Assembly: GCA_021791655.1 (NCBI GenBank)
Contig: JAJYWD010000004.1
Coordinates: 1 to 56,265 of the forward strand
Source of the DNA: Nanobdellota archaeon
GTDB taxonomy: Archaea; Nanobdellota; Nanobdellia; Parvarchaeales; Parvarchaeaceae
Reading direction: 5' to 3'
DNA: 56,265 bases
Of this stretch, positions 37,822 to 50,550 are shown piece by piece (position 1 is the first letter of the stretch; every line of letters begins with the position of its first letter). The notes below the pieces were generated by a model. That model made no database searches, was not told the origin of the DNA, and saw nothing but the letters and a program-made list of their open reading frames with translations. A program made the position numbers and the translations under genes.

Positions 37822-37902
37822 ATGGCAGGCAGCCGCGGATCGCGATCCGCTCTCAGTAAAAGGAAACGTATTAAACCGAGAGAGTACATAGTGATGGTAT
37901 GA
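37822..37902 (+). CDS. Putative 26-aa basic leader peptide overlapping the next start codon
   Basis: MAGSRGSRSALSKRKRIKPREYIVMV*. TGA overlaps ATG of the pilin-like gene at 37899 (ATGA). Confidence 0.3.
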   Translation: MAGSRGSRSALSKRKRIKPREYIVMV

Positions 37903-38900
37903 AGCCGGGGTCCTCCGTATATATTACAGACAGAAAAATTCTAGCAGACAAAAAATCCCAATCCGCCCTCGAGTACATGATGACCTACGGCTGGGCCATA
38001 CTCATCATAGTCATAGTCGCAGCCGTCCTCTACAGCCTGGGTATATTCAACCCCACCTCCTTCGTAGCCACCGAATCAGTCAGCGGATTCGCAGGATTAG
38101 GCAGCATACAGGCGCAGTGCTCTGCCGGGGGTTTAGAAATGAGCATAGGCAATGCAGTCGGGTCTTTGATAAATATAACGGATGTAAACGTCACCCTGAA
38201 CGGGCAGACGTACATAAACCAGATTTTCCCCGATTATTCCTCGTATCCGAGCGCGTATCTCATCTCCCCCGATCAGGAGAGTTCATTCATACTGAGAAAT
38301 GCATGTCCTAATTCAACCGGAAGGTTTTCAGAGACCGTGACGCTCGCGTATAAAGAGCCGGGCCAAGTATTCCCGGGACCTTATCAATCCACCGGCACCA
38401 TATCCGGCAATTCTGTACGCCAGTACGGAAGCCAGGATCTTATAATCGTTCCAGATTACCTAGGCACTGATAATGGTTCAGGCGGTTGGAGCGACAATCA
38501 GTATGGTTCCTGCCTAGTACAAACGGTAATCCCCGCCTCAAATGGGTTTTTGGGCTCTAAAGTAGAGAGCTTCATTGGACCCGCTTCATGTGGATCTAAC
38601 GGTGGAGGTGGTAATCGTGCATGGGCTATATCTGGAGTACAAACCGCACAATTTGAGAATACTACTCCTCCAACCACCTATCTGATTTCGTTCTATTACC
38701 GTTCTAACGTTTCTATCTGCGTTAACGATCGTGATATGTGTATCAAATCAATACCAGCCAATACAGGCAATGCAGAATATGTCCAGGTTCCTTACACTCC
38801 TACATCAAGTTACCACCCAGGTGGCGATGATTTATTGCTTTATAGTGGCGTCGCCAGTTGGTTCCAGGTCAATCGACTACAAATACTGACCAGTGGATGA
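37899..38900 (+). CDS. Class III signal-peptide (pilin-like) surface protein
   Basis: KSQSALEYMMTYGWAILIIVIVAAVLYSLGIFNP; YKEPGQVFPGPYQSTGTISGNSVRQ linker; unique C-terminal domain. Confidence 0.8.
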   Translation: MKPGSSVYITDRKILADKKSQSALEYMMTYGWAILIIVIVAAVLYSLGIFNPTSFVATESVSGFAGLGSIQAQCSAGGLEMSIGNAVGSLINITDVNVTLNGQTYINQIFPDYSSYPSAYLISPDQESSFILRNACPNSTGRFSETVTLAYKEPGQVFPGPYQSTGTISGNSVRQYGSQDLIIVPDYLGTDNGSGGWSDNQYGSCLVQTVIPASNGFLGSKVESFIGPASCGSNGGGGNRAWAISGVQTAQFENTTPPTTYLISFYYRSNVSICVNDRDMCIKSIPANTGNAEYVQVPYTPTSSYHPGGDDLLLYSGVASWFQVNRLQILTSG

Positions 38901-38992
38901 TAAGCTACCGACGACTTTACGCTAGGCTAGTCAAAGCATGCACATTCTAGTATAAGCATTAAATTTTAAAGTTACAATATAATTAAAGATGC

Positions 38993-39245
38993 ATGATTAT
39001 AGACGGCTTTCTTCTTCTTGCGGTAATGTTGGCGGCCGCTGGTGTCCTTTTTGTGTCTGCTTAGTGATAGAACGGGTTTTAGTGGCCCTAAAAGCAAAGA
39101 CAGAGGGCATGGCGCGGCGCCGGTAGAGAGCGTGAGAGGACGATAATGTCCACAAGGACGTGGGGTTCGAGTATTATTATGCGCTTATTTTCGTTCTCAT
39201 AGAGGCTCTATTCATTCTGCTTTTGCCGTGGGCCCAAAAACCAGA
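38993..39245 (+). pseudogene. NuoA-like (complex I subunit A) pseudogene
   Basis: Three frames in succession: MIIDGFLLLAVMLAAAGVLFVSA* / RTGFSGPKSKDRGHGAAPVESVRGR* / KDVGFEYYYALIFVLIEALFILLLPWAQK, in NuoA order (TM1, loop, acidic TM2). Confidence 0.6.
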
Positions 39246-39388
39246 AAGCACTGGGGCTGCCCATCTTTATGTGGGTGGCCACTCGACGGCAATGCAAATG
39301 ACTACGCGGAAACGGTAATAACGGCGTTGCATCCAACGTGCAGTGGACGTCCCCTTAAGATTTTTAATCCTGAAGTCTTTACTAACTA

Positions 39389-39844
39389 ATGGCAAAGTCA
39401 CAATCCGCCCTGGAATATCTTGTAACGTACGGCTGGGCGATACTCCTGATAGTGGCAGCGATAGCGATACTTTATGCGCTGGGATTTTTCAATCCGTCAA
39501 GCTCCATCTACAAGACCACGGTGATATCCGGATTTTCCGGCGTAAAAGTAGCCTCCGCATTTGCGAATTCATCCATTTTCCAGTTCGATGTACTGAACGA
39601 GGCGGGTGTTTCGGTTTCTCTGATAAATTCTACTCTTACGATAGACAGGCAGAATTACACGTCAATAACGTGCACGGACATGTACATTTCAAACGGCCAG
39701 AACTCCCCATGCAGCCTGTCCATAGCTCTTGGGAACGGGACGGAGGTGAACGCAGCGCTGTACATTTTTTACCAGGTCCCGATAACGGATAACTCGTTCA
39801 GGACGCTGGAATCCGTTGGAAGGCTGACCGTTCCTGTCTCGTAA
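39389..39844 (+). CDS. Class III signal-peptide small pilin-like protein
   Basis: KSQSALEYLVTYGWAILLIVAAIAILYALGFFNPSSS. Confidence 0.8.
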   Translation: MAKSQSALEYLVTYGWAILLIVAAIAILYALGFFNPSSSIYKTTVISGFSGVKVASAFANSSIFQFDVLNEAGVSVSLINSTLTIDRQNYTSITCTDMYISNGQNSPCSLSIALGNGTEVNAALYIFYQVPITDNSFRTLESVGRLTVPVS

Positions 39845-39857
39845 TCTATACTTATTT

Positions 39858-40973
39858 ATGGTCAGGTCTGCGAAAAGTGTTATGGGGCAATCGATTCCTC
39901 GTGATAAAAAGTCCCAGTCAGCCTTGGAATACATGATGACCTATGGGTGGGCCATCATGATAATAGTCATAGTTGTAGCTGTCCTCTACAGCCTTGGGAT
40001 TTTCAACCCATCTTCGTCAGTCCCTAGCACGACGGTCGTAGGTTTCGGCGGGTTAAACGGCATTACGGGAGAGTGCCTGAGCAACTCCGGCCTGGTAATG
40101 CAGGTTGGCAACATAGAGACTTACAACATAAATATAACGGCCGTCAATTACACCATAAATACCGGCAGTTACAGCATATCTCCCAATAGCAAAACATCGG
40201 AGATAACTCCCGATGGCACTACCTTCCTGATTCTTCCGAGCGCGTGCCCCGCAGCCGGCGACCGCTTCAGCGTTTATGTGTCTATAACTTACATTGCCAT
40301 CGGCGAACCGCTGGCGACGCCAACCACGACTTCGGGCACCATAAGCGGCACGGCTATAAGTCAAAAATACGTCGGGAGTTTTGACGGGTCGACTTCTTAC
40401 ATACAAATAAACAATATCAATCTCGGAAACACAATAACAGTAAGCTTTTGGGCGAAGGGTTCGAATTATGACGGTAGAATACCGTTCTCTGTCGACAGCA
40501 ACTTATACGGGACTTTGGGACCGGATGTATATTTTGCATGCGGCATGATAAACTGGAATAAAGGAAATGGCTGTGTTAACAATTTCTCAAGCAGTTCTTA
40601 TCCCAATTCAAACTGGCATAACTTTGTTGTAGTAGACTCGTATTCTGGGAGTTCTGCTAAGTTATACGTTGATGGTAAGTATGTCGGGTCTGCCGCTTCT
40701 TACTTAGACCCAACTTCGACCAATCGCTTTATAAGAATAGGTGCATACGCTGCCGGCGGTTATTATTTTCCGGGTGACATGGCGGGAGTAACCGTTTACT
40801 CTGTCGCATTGTCAAGTTCGCAGATTTCTACTGTATATAGCGGAGGGTTCGGCGGAGCACCGGTGTTGGATGCGGGTCTCGTGGGTTGGTGGCCGTTGAA
40901 TGATAACGCTCTTGATTACAGCGGGATCGGTAACACGGGCGTGGCCACGGACGTAAGCTGGGTCGCCACGTAA
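39858..40973 (+). CDS. Class III signal-peptide LamG surface protein
   Basis: KSQSALEYMMTYGWAIMIIVIVVAVLYSLGIFNPSSS; LamG-like YVGSFDGSTSYIQINNINLGNTITVSFWAKG...WHNFVVVDSYSGSSAKLYVDGKYVG. Confidence 0.85.
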   Translation: MVRSAKSVMGQSIPRDKKSQSALEYMMTYGWAIMIIVIVVAVLYSLGIFNPSSSVPSTTVVGFGGLNGITGECLSNSGLVMQVGNIETYNINITAVNYTINTGSYSISPNSKTSEITPDGTTFLILPSACPAAGDRFSVYVSITYIAIGEPLATPTTTSGTISGTAISQKYVGSFDGSTSYIQINNINLGNTITVSFWAKGSNYDGRIPFSVDSNLYGTLGPDVYFACGMINWNKGNGCVNNFSSSSYPNSNWHNFVVVDSYSGSSAKLYVDGKYVGSAASYLDPTSTNRFIRIGAYAAGGYYFPGDMAGVTVYSVALSSSQISTVYSGGFGGAPVLDAGLVGWWPLNDNALDYSGIGNTGVATDVSWVAT

Positions 40974-41132
40974 ATAAATATCTAGACCCGTATTAGGCGC
41001 CACTTACCCAGCGAAATATCATAACTGGTTTATTAAAAATTTTCACCTGCGCTTCAAGTAGCGAAAAATACTAAATTCCAAAGTAAAGATTTAAATAAGC
41101 CGATTATTCATAGAACCTTTATCGATGTTTTT

Positions 41133-43331
41133 ATGGGACAAGAACTTGCCGGCGGTAGGATCACCCTTGACCAATTTCTGGAGAACGATGAGTGGTGGGA
41201 GCACAACTTCAAGGACACGTCCCAATTGCCCCTTGCATTCCTGCGTAGCCAGTCAGATCGGGCTGCAGACGTACTATTCGAATATGACCCTTACAATAAG
41301 GTGGTGGGGCACGAAAAAGAGAAGGCGGCATCTAGAGCGGCGATTAACGGCGTAATAAAAACATACCAATACATAAGAAAGCGCTGGAAGGAACTGAGCG
41401 ATGCCGGCTTTAAGGAGAACGATCCTCCGGGAAATTGTATAATAGACATCATTCGCGAAGAGGTGCCGCCCATGCCGATGTTCATAAGGATAGGCGATTA
41501 CGGCAGCAGTAAGTCCCTGCAGCAAAAGTGCGAGGAAGAGTTTCTTTTTTCTGAGAGGAAAAAATACGGATTGACTGGATATGACTATATAACGAGGCCG
41601 GACAAGGAGTCCCCGTTAAAGTTCGTGCTTGAACAGAAATCTGCCCCTCTCGGTCAGGAGGAAGTCGCTAAACATTTCGAAAAGAAAGCTAGGCGCTCTG
41701 CTATAAAGAAAGGACTGAAGCTTGCTACCATACTCGGTGCGGCCGGAGCGATGACAGCAGCGTTCGTAGATTTCATAGTTCAGTGGTGGAGCATAGCGCA
41801 GTTTTTCGGTTATGACGCCCTGGAATGGGTGGTGGGTAACCTGATGGGCGAATTACCGTACGTTGAGAGCACGGTAGTGATAGCCGGCATTCCTGCCGGT
41901 TTGGCGCTTGCTAACAGTTTCCTGCACAAGAACGAAAGCAAGGACCCGAGCTTATTGTCTACCGGTAACGAGATGACCACGCCGTACGTCGGTCACGAGA
42001 CGGTCGGCAACCTGAGGGGGGAATACATGTACAATCTAGACGTCTCGCCACAGTTCAAGTTGAAGTTGGGCGATATACTAAAAGCTAATGAAAAGATCTT
42101 CGTGATAGAAAACTTGCACTCTCTTCCTGGCGACGTGCAAAAGAATCTCTCTCAGATAATAGAAGAGAAAACTCTGGACGTGGCCGATTTGCCGAGGGAG
42201 TACAGAAAATTCGTATACACGCTAATATCAGCCAGCATAAACACGGAGAAGTTGCCCCTGATAATAGAATCACTGCAGAACAGGATAAATTACGCGGACA
42301 TCCAGCACGTTATGAACGACATAACTAGGGACGAAGAAGTGGTTTATGAACTGCCGGATACCAAGACATCTATAGCGATAGATACTGGCGGAGGGACCAA
42401 GAGAAACCTCAAGAATGAGAGGCATCTGGCGTTGCTGTTGGCCGATATAGTTGATCGCGTCGGTGGAAGACCGTGGAGCAAGGACGCATATGGGGAATTC
42501 GTTGATTACTGTTCAAGGCTTGCCGATAGCTCTAATGAGTTGCACATAAGCAGGCGCGTAATACGACTGCCAAAGAAAGCTGAAGAGTTTGCGGAGATGG
42601 AGCACAGCCCTTACGTTAAGCCGCAACACGTACTAATGGCGGAGAAGGAATCCAAATCGATTACTCAGTTGGTAATGAGCAAGAAGCTACAGGATTATAC
42701 TATCGAACAGAACGTCTCTCTTAGTGGCGATGCAAAGATCGGTAGGGTCAACGTGCTTTTGAGTTATCACGACGATTTGCTTAAGGGTATGGAGCAGGGC
42801 ACGCCTAAAGAAATCTATGACTACATACAGACGGAAGACTATGTGGGATATGTGGTGCCAATAAATGCATTAGCAAAGCGTGTCAGAGGAAAAGGATCCA
42901 AGCTTGAGATAATAACTAAAGACAAGACGATTGACAGAGAGAACCTTAAGAACTCTCTAAGAGCCTTATTCCTGAGAGAGAATGTCGATCTTGACAAATA
43001 CCAGATATTCGTTTCTGTCCCCTCACTGAAAGACGACGAAGCGATTCTTGGCGGCGCTTACTCCGCGGTTCGTTCCGCCGTAAGTGGCAAGCCGATCAGG
43101 CAGGACGTTTGTCTGGCCGTAAAGCTTTCAGAGACCGGCGATATAACGTCTTTGCCGAGACTGAACTCTCGACTGTTTTATTTGTCGGGAGCGCCGAAAG
43201 TGATAGTATCAACTCACGATATGAAAAGCAAGGTTGAAGATCCAAGCGGGAGATCTTTGTACAAAGACATAAGTTTCAAACCTACCCAGTCACTCAAGGA
43301 ACTTAACGAATACATTGAGGGAACCATATGA
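41133..43331 (+). CDS. Divergent LonB-like AAA+ membrane protein with substituted protease catalytic residues (pseudo-LonB)
   Basis: LonB order: degraded Walker A GDYGSSKS, TM insertion, TPYVGHETVGNLRGEYMYNLD, degraded Walker B KIFVIENLHSLPGDVQKNLSQIIEEK, protease-domain KDDEAILGGAYSAVRSAVSGKPIRQDVCLAVKLSETGDI. Confidence 0.7.
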   Translation: MGQELAGGRITLDQFLENDEWWEHNFKDTSQLPLAFLRSQSDRAADVLFEYDPYNKVVGHEKEKAASRAAINGVIKTYQYIRKRWKELSDAGFKENDPPGNCIIDIIREEVPPMPMFIRIGDYGSSKSLQQKCEEEFLFSERKKYGLTGYDYITRPDKESPLKFVLEQKSAPLGQEEVAKHFEKKARRSAIKKGLKLATILGAAGAMTAAFVDFIVQWWSIAQFFGYDALEWVVGNLMGELPYVESTVVIAGIPAGLALANSFLHKNESKDPSLLSTGNEMTTPYVGHETVGNLRGEYMYNLDVSPQFKLKLGDILKANEKIFVIENLHSLPGDVQKNLSQIIEEKTLDVADLPREYRKFVYTLISASINTEKLPLIIESLQNRINYADIQHVMNDITRDEEVVYELPDTKTSIAIDTGGGTKRNLKNERHLALLLADIVDRVGGRPWSKDAYGEFVDYCSRLADSSNELHISRRVIRLPKKAEEFAEMEHSPYVKPQHVLMAEKESKSITQLVMSKKLQDYTIEQNVSLSGDAKIGRVNVLLSYHDDLLKGMEQGTPKEIYDYIQTEDYVGYVVPINALAKRVRGKGSKLEIITKDKTIDRENLKNSLRALFLRENVDLDKYQIFVSVPSLKDDEAILGGAYSAVRSAVSGKPIRQDVCLAVKLSETGDITSLPRLNSRLFYLSGAPKVIVSTHDMKSKVEDPSGRSLYKDISFKPTQSLKELNEYIEGTI

Positions 43332-45238
43332 CAGACGACCAGAATCAGTCTGACGCCGAAACGGCTTACAAAAGCGCGGGAAAGGGTTTAGACCTGGGCG
43401 GTCTGCTATACCTTGAGTTGGACTCTAAACGACTAAGTCGCGCCCTTCGCTCTATTTATAGGGACGGGGAGAGACTTGGGAATCTGGCGGGATTTGCAGT
43501 AAACGCACCCTTGCCCGGCGCCGCATCAATAATAAATCACGCGTTGCCGGAGAAAATCATCGGCGGCAGCAGCTGGGTGTGGAATTCATCAATATTCAAC
43601 AACAGCGGTCTGGAAGCCGAATTGCACGAATATTCCCACGCACTCACGAATAACATACTTTTTGATCCCACCCTCCATCAGAATGTCCAGGTGTACGTAA
43701 ATAATGTACTTAGTAATACCACTGTCCCGATAGGCAGCGTGCCTTATTCTCAGCTAGGTCTACCCCCGGCAGTCTGGAGCGTGACTAACAGCATGTGGGA
43801 AAATTTCGCGAGCGAATTTCACAGCTCTGGATTATTCAAGGCGTTGTTGGACCTTCTAGATGGTAAAGACACGCAGGTCCTTCCAGGTTCTACCAATGCG
43901 ATAGGCGAGTTCCAGTTCTTCAGCCCAGATAAGCTTGTGTGCAACGGCATGATTGTACCGGTACAACAGGGCCAGCAAATAGTGCCACAACCGATAATAG
44001 ACCCAAGCTCTTGCGTGCTTCATACGCAGACCCACGCGCTCGGCTCCGTACTTGGGGAATTCAATGACAATATGCTGGTCTTCGCAGGCGGGACCATGGG
44101 AGAAATGATATTCCTTGGCCTTACTCCCTATCTTATCGGTAGGATGGTGAAAAAGAAGTCGCCTTTCGCCGGAGGCTTCGCACAGATGTTCTCGTTCGGA
44201 TCTTACATGAACGCGGTTTTCTATCCTGTCAACAGTGCTATAGACTGGACCAGAGGAAATACTTCGTACGGTGGCGACTGGCAGGCGATAATGCAGTATA
44301 CTGGTGTAAACCCGTGGCTGCTTGCGGGCACTGTTGCCGCAATTTATCCGACTGCGGTATTGGGATTATACCTCAGGGATAAGCGCAACAGGGAAGCGGA
44401 AGCCAGGAAGGGGGCGCTGGAACGACTGCTGTCTACTGATATGGTGGCAGTAGAAAAAGTGGACAAGCTCATAGCCAATTATGGCTCAGAAATACCGCGA
44501 AAAGCAATAAATCTCCCGAAAATAGGCAGACTAGAAATGAGCGAGCTACCTTTGGTAGACAAAGTGCTCAAGTTGCGTAGTAGCAAGAAAAAAGACAGCT
44601 TGTCGCGTTACAAAATATCCGGATACGGCAGCCTCGAGGAGAGCAAGTCTGCCCTGATGGAACAACTGGAAGCCGCCGAGACCGTAGTGCAGAAGATAAA
44701 GATAAAGAGAGAAATCAGAAAACTCAAGAAGGTAAGAAAGTCAGTACTTGACCACGTTTTAATGGATGAAGACTTGGGCGCAGCAGCTGACAGAGAGGCT
44801 AAAGTCTATGGCGTGTTATCAGACGGATACTTGGATTTCAAATACGACCCGGATGGATTCTCTAGAAATTTGGAGGACAAGCTAAATGCCCAAAAAGTCA
44901 ACATGCTGTCAAAACTTGTTTCGTACGTTACAAAAGGCAGGATCGGCGCGGAAAGAGAGCAGCCAGAACCGTTCACAGTGGATCAGGAAGGTTTGAGAGA
45001 TAGACTATCTGAATATTACGAAAATCCAAATCAACCGGGCCTTTCCGTGATTTATGGTGGGGGCGCAAAGAGGGCTCTTGCCGGCCCGGAACTAGACAGG
45101 CCAGAAAAGCTGCGCAGACTTAGCACTCTTCAGAGCCTGCTTTTGTGCGTTACTGACAATGCCGAGGCCGCTTCGCTGAAAAAAGAAGTAAATTCCTTAA
45201 GAAAGGATTTGGGCTTAGAAAACATATCCTTGTCTTAG
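43328..45238 (+). CDS. Membrane protein with HExxH motif (putative zinc metalloprotease), overlaps pseudo-LonB
   Basis: AELHEYSHALTNNI (HExxH); several TM segments; long charged C-terminal region; ATGA overlap at 43328-43331. Confidence 0.55.
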   Translation: MTDDQNQSDAETAYKSAGKGLDLGGLLYLELDSKRLSRALRSIYRDGERLGNLAGFAVNAPLPGAASIINHALPEKIIGGSSWVWNSSIFNNSGLEAELHEYSHALTNNILFDPTLHQNVQVYVNNVLSNTTVPIGSVPYSQLGLPPAVWSVTNSMWENFASEFHSSGLFKALLDLLDGKDTQVLPGSTNAIGEFQFFSPDKLVCNGMIVPVQQGQQIVPQPIIDPSSCVLHTQTHALGSVLGEFNDNMLVFAGGTMGEMIFLGLTPYLIGRMVKKKSPFAGGFAQMFSFGSYMNAVFYPVNSAIDWTRGNTSYGGDWQAIMQYTGVNPWLLAGTVAAIYPTAVLGLYLRDKRNREAEARKGALERLLSTDMVAVEKVDKLIANYGSEIPRKAINLPKIGRLEMSELPLVDKVLKLRSSKKKDSLSRYKISGYGSLEESKSALMEQLEAAETVVQKIKIKREIRKLKKVRKSVLDHVLMDEDLGAAADREAKVYGVLSDGYLDFKYDPDGFSRNLEDKLNAQKVNMLSKLVSYVTKGRIGAEREQPEPFTVDQEGLRDRLSEYYENPNQPGLSVIYGGGAKRALAGPELDRPEKLRRLSTLQSLLLCVTDNAEAASLKKEVNSLRKDLGLENISLS

Positions 45239-48837: not shown

Positions 48838-50550
48838 ATGGAAATTTTAAGTCTGCATATGGAGGAGGACACAGAAATCAAGAAAATAGCCCTCAAGAAC
48901 GCCATGGAGCACGGCGGCAGGGCGGAAGACGGTGCGATTCTTTCTAAGGTTATAGGTGCCGACAAGTCGGTTTTGAAGGATTTGAAGACGCTGCGTGCAA
49001 AAGTAAAAGAAATGGTGAATTACGTCAATGGTTTATCGGATGCGCAGCGAGCGGAAGAAGCAGAAGAACTGGGGGTAAACATTGCAACCTCCGCCAAGGC
49101 GGAACCCAAGGCCGAATTAAAAGATCTGCCCAATGTGAAGGGGAAAGTCGTTCTAAGACTGCCGCCCGAGCCGTCCGGCTTTATGCATCTCGGGCACGCC
49201 ATATCTGGGATGATAAACTTTCTGTACAAGGAGAAGTACAACGGTAAACTCTGGCTCAGATTCGAGGATACGAACCCGGTGCGGGGATATCAGAATTTTA
49301 TAGACGACTTCAAGAGCGGTTATTCATGGCTGGGCATAAAATGGGACGAAGAAAAGTTCATAACCGATGACATGATAAAAATTTACGACTATGCGGAGAA
49401 ACTTCTAAAAGAAGGCAAGCTATACGCGTGCTCCTGTCCCGAAGAAGATATTAAAAAGAACCGAGCCGGCGGCACCCAGTGCGCGTGTAGGAATCGCCCC
49501 GTGGACGAGAATCTTGAGCTGTTTGATTTGGCAAAGCGCGGGAAAAAAGAGCCGAAGAGTATGGTGATAAGGCTTGTCGGTGACATGAAGAGCAACAATT
49601 ACAGGTTCAGGGACCCGAACATGTTCAGGATTGTTCGGACCGATTACAAGCCGTTCCATCTGTGGCCGACTTACTATTTTGCAAACGTGGTTGAGGACTA
49701 CCTGTGCGGCGTTACCCACATACTTCGTTCAAATGAATTCGATCCCTTTGTGCAGTCCTATCTTAGGAAGCTGCTTGAATTTTACGAACCGATCACGGTA
49801 CAGTTCTCGCGCTATAATTTCAAGGGAGTCCCTTTTTCAAAGCGTGTGCAGCGTCGTCTTATAAGCGAAGGCAAGATAAAGGATTATAACGATTTACGCC
49901 TGCCCACCATAAAGGCGATAAGGAGGCGTGGCATACAGCCGGAAGCGATAAAAGAATTCACACTGCGCGTCGGATACTCGGGGAGCAAGCACGAGTATAC
50001 ATGGGACTTGCTGTTAACTCTCAACAGACGTCTTATAGACGAAAGGGCAAGGCGCATGTTTTTCGTACCGGATCCGATAAGGCTGGAAGTGTCGGGTCCT
50101 AATCCCGGCGAGGTGCGTTTGCTTAACCACCCCTCCTCGGACCGGGGTAGCAGGATATTGAAGGTAAGTAATGTGTTTTTCGTCGATAGAAACGACTTTT
50201 CTGAGATAAACGGGGGTGACATCATTCGTCTTAAAGATCTGTTTTCCATAAAAGTGAATAAAAAAGAGGATAATGCACTGAAAGCAGAAGTGTACTCCGA
50301 AAAGCGTGTAGGCGCTGAGAAAATAATACAGTGGGTTTCATCCGATAATACTACCATCAAGGTGCAGGTAATCGGTGAATTGCTTAATCCTGACAAAACA
50401 TTCAATGAGAACAGTCTTATGGTAAAGGAAGGCTTTGCAGAAAAGACAGTGGAACTTTTGAATGAAGGAGACATAATACAGTTCGAGAGATTTGGCTTTT
50501 GTAGGCTGGACAATAAGGCTGGCATGGAGTTCATTTTTATAAGTCGCTAA
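48838..50550 (+). CDS. gltX: Glutamyl-tRNA synthetase (archaeal type)
   Basis: VVLRLPPEPSGFMHLGHAISGMINFLYKEKYNGKLWLRFEDTNP; FSRYNFKGVPFSKR. Confidence 0.93.
   Translation: MEILSLHMEEDTEIKKIALKNAMEHGGRAEDGAILSKVIGADKSVLKDLKTLRAKVKEMVNYVNGLSDAQRAEEAEELGVNIATSAKAEPKAELKDLPNVKGKVVLRLPPEPSGFMHLGHAISGMINFLYKEKYNGKLWLRFEDTNPVRGYQNFIDDFKSGYSWLGIKWDEEKFITDDMIKIYDYAEKLLKEGKLYACSCPEEDIKKNRAGGTQCACRNRPVDENLELFDLAKRGKKEPKSMVIRLVGDMKSNNYRFRDPNMFRIVRTDYKPFHLWPTYYFANVVEDYLCGVTHILRSNEFDPFVQSYLRKLLEFYEPITVQFSRYNFKGVPFSKRVQRRLISEGKIKDYNDLRLPTIKAIRRRGIQPEAIKEFTLRVGYSGSKHEYTWDLLLTLNRRLIDERARRMFFVPDPIRLEVSGPNPGEVRLLNHPSSDRGSRILKVSNVFFVDRNDFSEINGGDIIRLKDLFSIKVNKKEDNALKAEVYSEKRVGAEKIIQWVSSDNTTIKVQVIGELLNPDKTFNENSLMVKEGFAEKTVELLNEGDIIQFERFGFCRLDNKAGMEFIFISR

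Follow-up and report, generated by a model that had tools for sequence, protein, structure and literature searches.

The window, the 56,265-nt stretch of archaeal DNA analysed here, carries a gene that likely encodes a pseudoenzyme derived from archaeal LonB, hereafter pseudo-LonB. This assignment is well supported by catalytic residues that are replaced consistently across 11 members, the nine members tested forming one clade; the absence of catalysis itself is inferred from sequence. Our main reading, to which we give a probability of roughly 0.55, is that pseudo-LonB is a maintained LonB paralogue that has lost both protease activity and ATP turnover and would act as an ATP-locked membrane ring through a tail-docked partner, a mechanism that we infer. 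The gene and its upstream element are as follows:

41133-43331, + strand: pseudo-LonB gene; intact open reading frame of 732 aa with an ATG start; matches LonB profiles and has 10 relatives in 384 genomes of the class.
41090-41097, + strand: archaeal TATA-box-like element, TTTAAATA, ~35 nt 5′ of the pseudo-LonB start codon; read by eye, with no test of function.

The homology of pseudo-LonB to LonB is real but remote, with ~21% identity. A Pfam search with the protein alone returned only a sub-threshold match to LonB_AAA-LID, and the NCBIfam LonB model TIGR00764 matched at E 5e-9 with 35.2 bits, short of its curated cut-off of 516.6. The LonB structure 3k1j was matched at E 1.4e-4 from the single sequence and at E 3e-14 with the family profile. 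In a profile-profile comparison with the canonical LonBs of the same class, 586 columns aligned at E 2.4e-25 with collinear domains. Pseudo-LonB meets the LonB membership feature of an AAA+ module, a membrane segment inserted between the two Walker motifs, and a C-terminal Lon domain, in that order. These are preceded by a long, family-specific N-terminal extension of ~110 residues. The insertion is present by hydropathy, with values lower than in canonical LonB:

41712-41924, + strand: pseudo-LonB membrane insertion, located between the Walker motifs; hydropathy shows two hydrophobic stretches, aa 194-212 and aa 246-264; position aligned with the LonB insertion.

Structure prediction added little. 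A full-length AlphaFold model, built from two sequences, reached a pLDDT of 35 and was discarded, leaving no full-length structure. In a model of the Lon domain, residues 40-117 alone were usable (pLDDT about 60-79), and a fold search with this part returned the Lon-like domain of RadA as the best match, which we treat as supporting evidence only, given the low confidence of the model.

We called active-site residues from a joint alignment of the 11 pseudo-LonB members with 28 LonB or LonB-like sequences. At the former protease site, the alignment gives:

43032-43043, + strand: former nucleophile site Asp634-Asp635-Glu636-Ala637 (canonical Glu-Gly-Asp-Ser), beginning the helix at aa 635-651 of the domain model.
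43170-43172, + strand: Arg680, replacing the catalytic Lys; Arg in 11/11 members, with no gap between it and IRQD.

LonB protease activity requires the Ser of [E/D]GDSA[S/T] and a Lys, and pseudo-LonB fails this requirement at both positions. The catalytic Ser position is Ala637 in the window protein, and the acid before it is retained as Glu636; the residue at this preceding column is acidic in 10 of the 11 members. The nucleophile column itself holds Ala in the window protein and in the copies from genomes G024, G012, G020, G006 and G228, Ser in G027 and G032, and Thr in G004, G013 and G347. Where Ser is present it is never paired with Lys, as G027 and G032 have Arg at the Lys column. hhalign places the catalytic Ser one residue earlier, at Glu636; we prefer Ala637 because the shifted placement needs a gap within a helix that is continuous (635-651) in the Lon-domain model, and there is no Ser at either position. 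An ion pair between Glu/Asp636 and Arg680 could possibly substitute for the Ser-Lys dyad, an inference on our part. Asn678, Arg680, Ser693, Asp696 and Lys700 are invariant across the eight same-genus members.

The ATPase site has been altered selectively:

41493-41516, + strand: Walker A GDYGSSKS, aa 121-128; Lys127 and Ser/Thr128 invariant in the joint alignment.
42102-42113, + strand: Walker B, changed from canonical FIDE to VIEN at aa 324-327; by joint alignment, nine members have Glu-Asn and G347 has Glu-Gln.
42240-42242, + strand: sensor-1 Asn370; by joint alignment, in 9/10 members; function by homology.
42282-42284, + strand: Arg384 in the arginine-finger column; by joint alignment, in 10/10; function by homology.
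42552-42554, + strand: sensor-2 Arg474; by joint alignment, in 10/10; function by homology.

The P-loop Lys and Ser/Thr are retained in all nine members that cover Walker A. Three of the nine have a textbook P-loop (GPYAGGKT, GPHAGGKT and GDYGSGKS), and in the other six the Gly preceding the Lys is replaced by Ser or Thr. The one exception at sensor 1 is the split G032 copy, in which this column is disrupted and cannot be aligned. The sequences thus show selective replacement of hydrolysis residues, and not general degradation, with the Walker B acid pair alone consistently changed. LonB requires hydrolysis-competent Walker A and Walker B motifs; pseudo-LonB fails this with a largely retained Walker A and a Glu-Asn or Glu-Gln Walker B, a judgement that rests on sequence only, with no assay. 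By analogy, the Glu-Gln or Glu-Asn pair would be nature's equivalent of the E-to-Q substitution with which laboratories trap ATP. In PspF, the Walker B substitution E108Q leaves <1% of ATPase activity, tightens ATP binding about 30-fold and produces constitutive hexamers (PMC4132715). We note that ATP binding by pseudo-LonB may be lost as well, because the change of Asp to Glu together with Glu to Asn differs from a single Glu-to-Gln substitution.

The initial annotation of this gene had proposed a LonB domain order that includes the membrane insertion and PIRQDV, a catalytic Ser changed to Ala, the Lys of ATPKIEAA changed to Arg in LNSRLFY, and degraded ATPase motifs (Walker A GDYGSSKS, Walker B VIEN). 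The domain order held, on the collinear profile columns and the hydropathy, and the LonB similarity was recovered in all three profile-based comparisons above (TIGR00764, 3k1j and profile-profile). Both dyad replacements held, the loss of Ser under either alignment, and both Walker sequences were confirmed. The claim of degraded motifs held only in part: the Walker B pair is replaced, Walker A is not clearly degraded, and the arginine finger and sensors are retained.

Pseudo-LonB is followed without a gap by a second gene on the same strand:

43328-43331, + strand: ATGA overlap, the partner start lying within the pseudo-LonB stop.
43328-45238, + strand: partner gene of the window, 636 aa, with a body unlike that of the usual ~240-aa partner.
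45092-45235, + strand: C-terminal tail of the window partner, sharing homology with the usual-partner tail (46 columns aligned by hhalign at E 4.9e-6; profile E 2.3e-4).
43625-43639, + strand: HEYSH, aa 100-104 of the window partner, a possible zinc-metallopeptidase motif; 0.006 HExxH motifs expected from composition.

In nine carriers, the gene directly 3′ of pseudo-LonB on the same strand belongs to one homologous family of ~240 aa, and the junctions overlap by up to 14 bases or leave a gap of at most 1 base. A profile of this usual partner finds it in 10 of the 384 class genomes, all ten of which carry pseudo-LonB, with the two genes invariably adjacent; no partner was found among the 384 in a genome without pseudo-LonB. 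The one carrier of the 11 that lacks the partner is G032, where the next gene encodes a PDZ-containing M50 peptidase (E 7.6e-25). Across pairs of carriers, the distance between pseudo-LonBs tracks that between their partners (r 0.96, 21 non-independent pairs; r 0.68 over the 10 pairs that include a canonical LonB distance), and the distances of canonical LonB correlate with neither.

In the window genome, the tail of the 636-aa protein is the sole match to the usual-partner profile. We considered that this protein might be an ordinary partner with insertions and rejected this, since the alignment is limited to the tail. No homologues of its body were found in 96 relatives. Membrane M50-like peptidases are resembled by its GGT...GGDW arrangement together with HEYSH; no Pfam, NCBIfam or PDB match supports a metallopeptidase, and the hydrophobic segments of the partner are weak by hydropathy.

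The family is sparsely distributed. Carriers number 11 of the 384 genomes of the class and come from three families, eight being in the genus of the window and the others being G032, G228 and G347; a phylum-wide genome sample yielded no carrier beyond these 11. A search of 96 close genomes found same-genus orthologues, at 38-61% identity, in 7 of the 27 other genomes, one of them truncated by a contig edge. The gene was not found in 20 of the 28 genus genomes, several of which are incomplete. The G228 and G347 copies are both truncated by contig ends, and a scan of the genome contigs returned a single locus, a gene already found. Nine of the 11 members could be placed in a tree, where they are monophyletic and separate from the 28 LonB and LonB-like sequences (UFBoot 99). 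One member is interrupted:

L040:7193-10602, - strand: split pseudo-LonB of G032, in two overlapping frames; a frameshift and an assembly error are both possible.

As the G032 copy is split and has no partner, the gene appears capable of decay. Elsewhere it is kept open: the eight same-genus frames span 718-825 aa and diverge down to 34% identity with the same replaced motifs. Between pairs at 34-80% identity (most at 34-61%), pN is 0.12-0.47 and pS is saturated at 0.75-0.88. Because dS is saturated in almost every pair, only a qualitative bound can be placed on dN/dS; the sole pair with a computable ratio gives 0.18. Pseudo-LonB dN is about 2-5.5x the canonical LonB value for the same genome pairs, and the constraint on pseudo-LonB is real but weaker than that on LonB. 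Given that relatives share the changes and nearly always the partner adjacency, we consider the gene probably a working "dead enzyme", not a decaying one. The initial annotation's view of a long, clean and maintained frame is therefore supported; its suggestion of a membrane adaptor, regulator or decoy remains a proposal only, and the linked partner, which it had missed, is added here.

A canonical LonB is encoded elsewhere in the window genome (G000:C15), with GTGKS, FIDE, GDSAS and the catalytic Lys, and one is detected in nine of the 11 carriers. None was found in carrier G024 (84% complete), and carrier G347 (72% complete) has just a divergent LonB-like protein. Within the genus, no canonical LonB was found in G016 (100% complete) or G024, only a distant Lon-domain protein, so LonB is possibly dispensable in this genus.

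The surrounding genes are housekeeping, PADLOC found no defence match for the locus, and a phage library search gave nothing beyond one match at E 0.16, which we disregarded. At 37899-40973 (+ strand) lie three consecutive genes whose products carry N-terminal QSALEYxxTYGWAI, an archaeal class III (pilin-like) signal peptide motif; one has a LamG/ConA-like domain (E 1.2e-19), and a relative of these genes is also found upstream of pseudo-LonB in G024. In G347 and G228 (L063:2062-3177 and L064:1217-2284, + strand), the partner is followed by a third gene of ~360 aa and then by a glutamyl-tRNA-synthetase-like gene; a Glu/Gln-type tRNA synthetase lies a few genes downstream in the window, at 48838-50550. 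From translations, without a profile, we read a proteasome alpha subunit-like gene within ~6 kb of pseudo-LonB in three genomes, at loci L036, L039 and L040, with an aldehyde-dehydrogenase-like gene between the two in L036 and L039.

Compared to archaeal LonB (MEROPS S16.005; TonLonB 3k1j; TIGR00764), pseudo-LonB shares the AAA+ module with its membrane insertion, the LID, the C-terminal Lon domain and PIRQDV. It differs in the lost dyad, the change of Walker B from DE to EN or EQ, the N-terminal extension, a shorter loop linking Walker B to sensor 1, and the linked partner gene. In RadA/Sms and ComM, the Lon fold serves as a ring scaffold and not as a protease (PMC11612176); unlike pseudo-LonB, RadA and ComM have functioning ATPases, act on DNA and lack the LonB membrane insertion. 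MtaLonC binds nucleotide without ATPase activity and is hexameric (PMC3391209). LonC is, however, an active protease with no membrane segment, whereas pseudo-LonB appears to lose both activities and keeps the sensor residues; pseudo-LonB also fails the definition of LonC (an active Ser-Lys dyad with the ATPase motifs missing), having lost the dyad and retained most ATPase motifs. BrxL of BREX combines an AAA+ module with a C-terminal Lon-like domain in which no protease site is conserved (PMC10164562) but differs from pseudo-LonB in being an active, DNA-binding ATPase of a defence operon. Pseudo-proteases such as iRhoms are known best from eukaryotes. We found no description of a doubly inactive LonB in the mostly open-access literature that we searched. 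As none of these relatives is a membrane LonB that has lost both activities, we class pseudo-LonB not as a LonB protease by membership but as a LonB-derived pseudoenzyme.

In the mechanism that we propose, pseudo-LonB would bind ATP tightly without hydrolyzing it and form a stable membrane ring by means of the LonB insertion. The C-terminal tail of the partner is predicted to dock onto this ring, which may serve as a scaffold or holdase that places the partner body against membrane clients, in the window possibly with a metallopeptidase-like body. Each step is inferred; ATP binding, oligomerization and the contact between ring and tail are untested. A bolder version, which we regard as no more than possible, is that small-genome archaea have a two-component membrane system not described before, in which an ATP-trapped, protease-dead LonB ring delivers its output through an interchangeable partner, plugged in by its short, conserved C-terminal tail. 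At least one species would then have swapped the partner body, perhaps for a membrane metallopeptidase.

One rival, which we hold to be unlikely, is a regulatory or dominant-negative subunit that enters canonical LonB rings and, acting as a decoy or holding substrate, slows them down or diverts them. The co-occurrence of canonical LonB, in the window genome and in most carriers, the common domain plan and the retained assembly residues speak for it. Against it, the low identity to LonB and the long N-terminal extension disfavour mixed rings, G024 has no detected LonB and G347 only the divergent protein, pseudo-LonB distances do not follow those of LonB, and pseudo-LonB has a linked partner of its own.

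We also doubt that pseudo-LonB is a re-tooled enzyme with another catalysis, for example from a shifted site at Ser693/Asp696/Lys700, or with slow ATP hydrolysis via Glu326. The five residues invariant within the genus and the Ser that persists at the nucleophile column in G027 and G032 favour this; however, in those Ser-bearing members the Lys column holds Arg, the Ser693 motif falls beyond the Lon catalytic helix, and no structure brings the residues together. Decay of a LonB duplicate into a pseudogene, which the elevated dN, the split G032 copy and the failure to find the gene in most genus genomes (several incomplete) might suggest, is very unlikely and is contradicted by the present data, namely eight open frames down to 34% identity with the same motif replacements, an invariant Arg680 and gapless partner linkage.

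The main reading, a maintained and catalytically inactive LonB paralogue that works through its partner, lends itself to direct testing, since the partner, the partner's tail and the altered residues have each been pinned down. If it is true, pseudo-LonB would be a natural Walker B trap, of the kind that laboratories engineer deliberately, and cells holding <1 Mb of DNA would have turned an AAA+ protease into a scaffold at the membrane.
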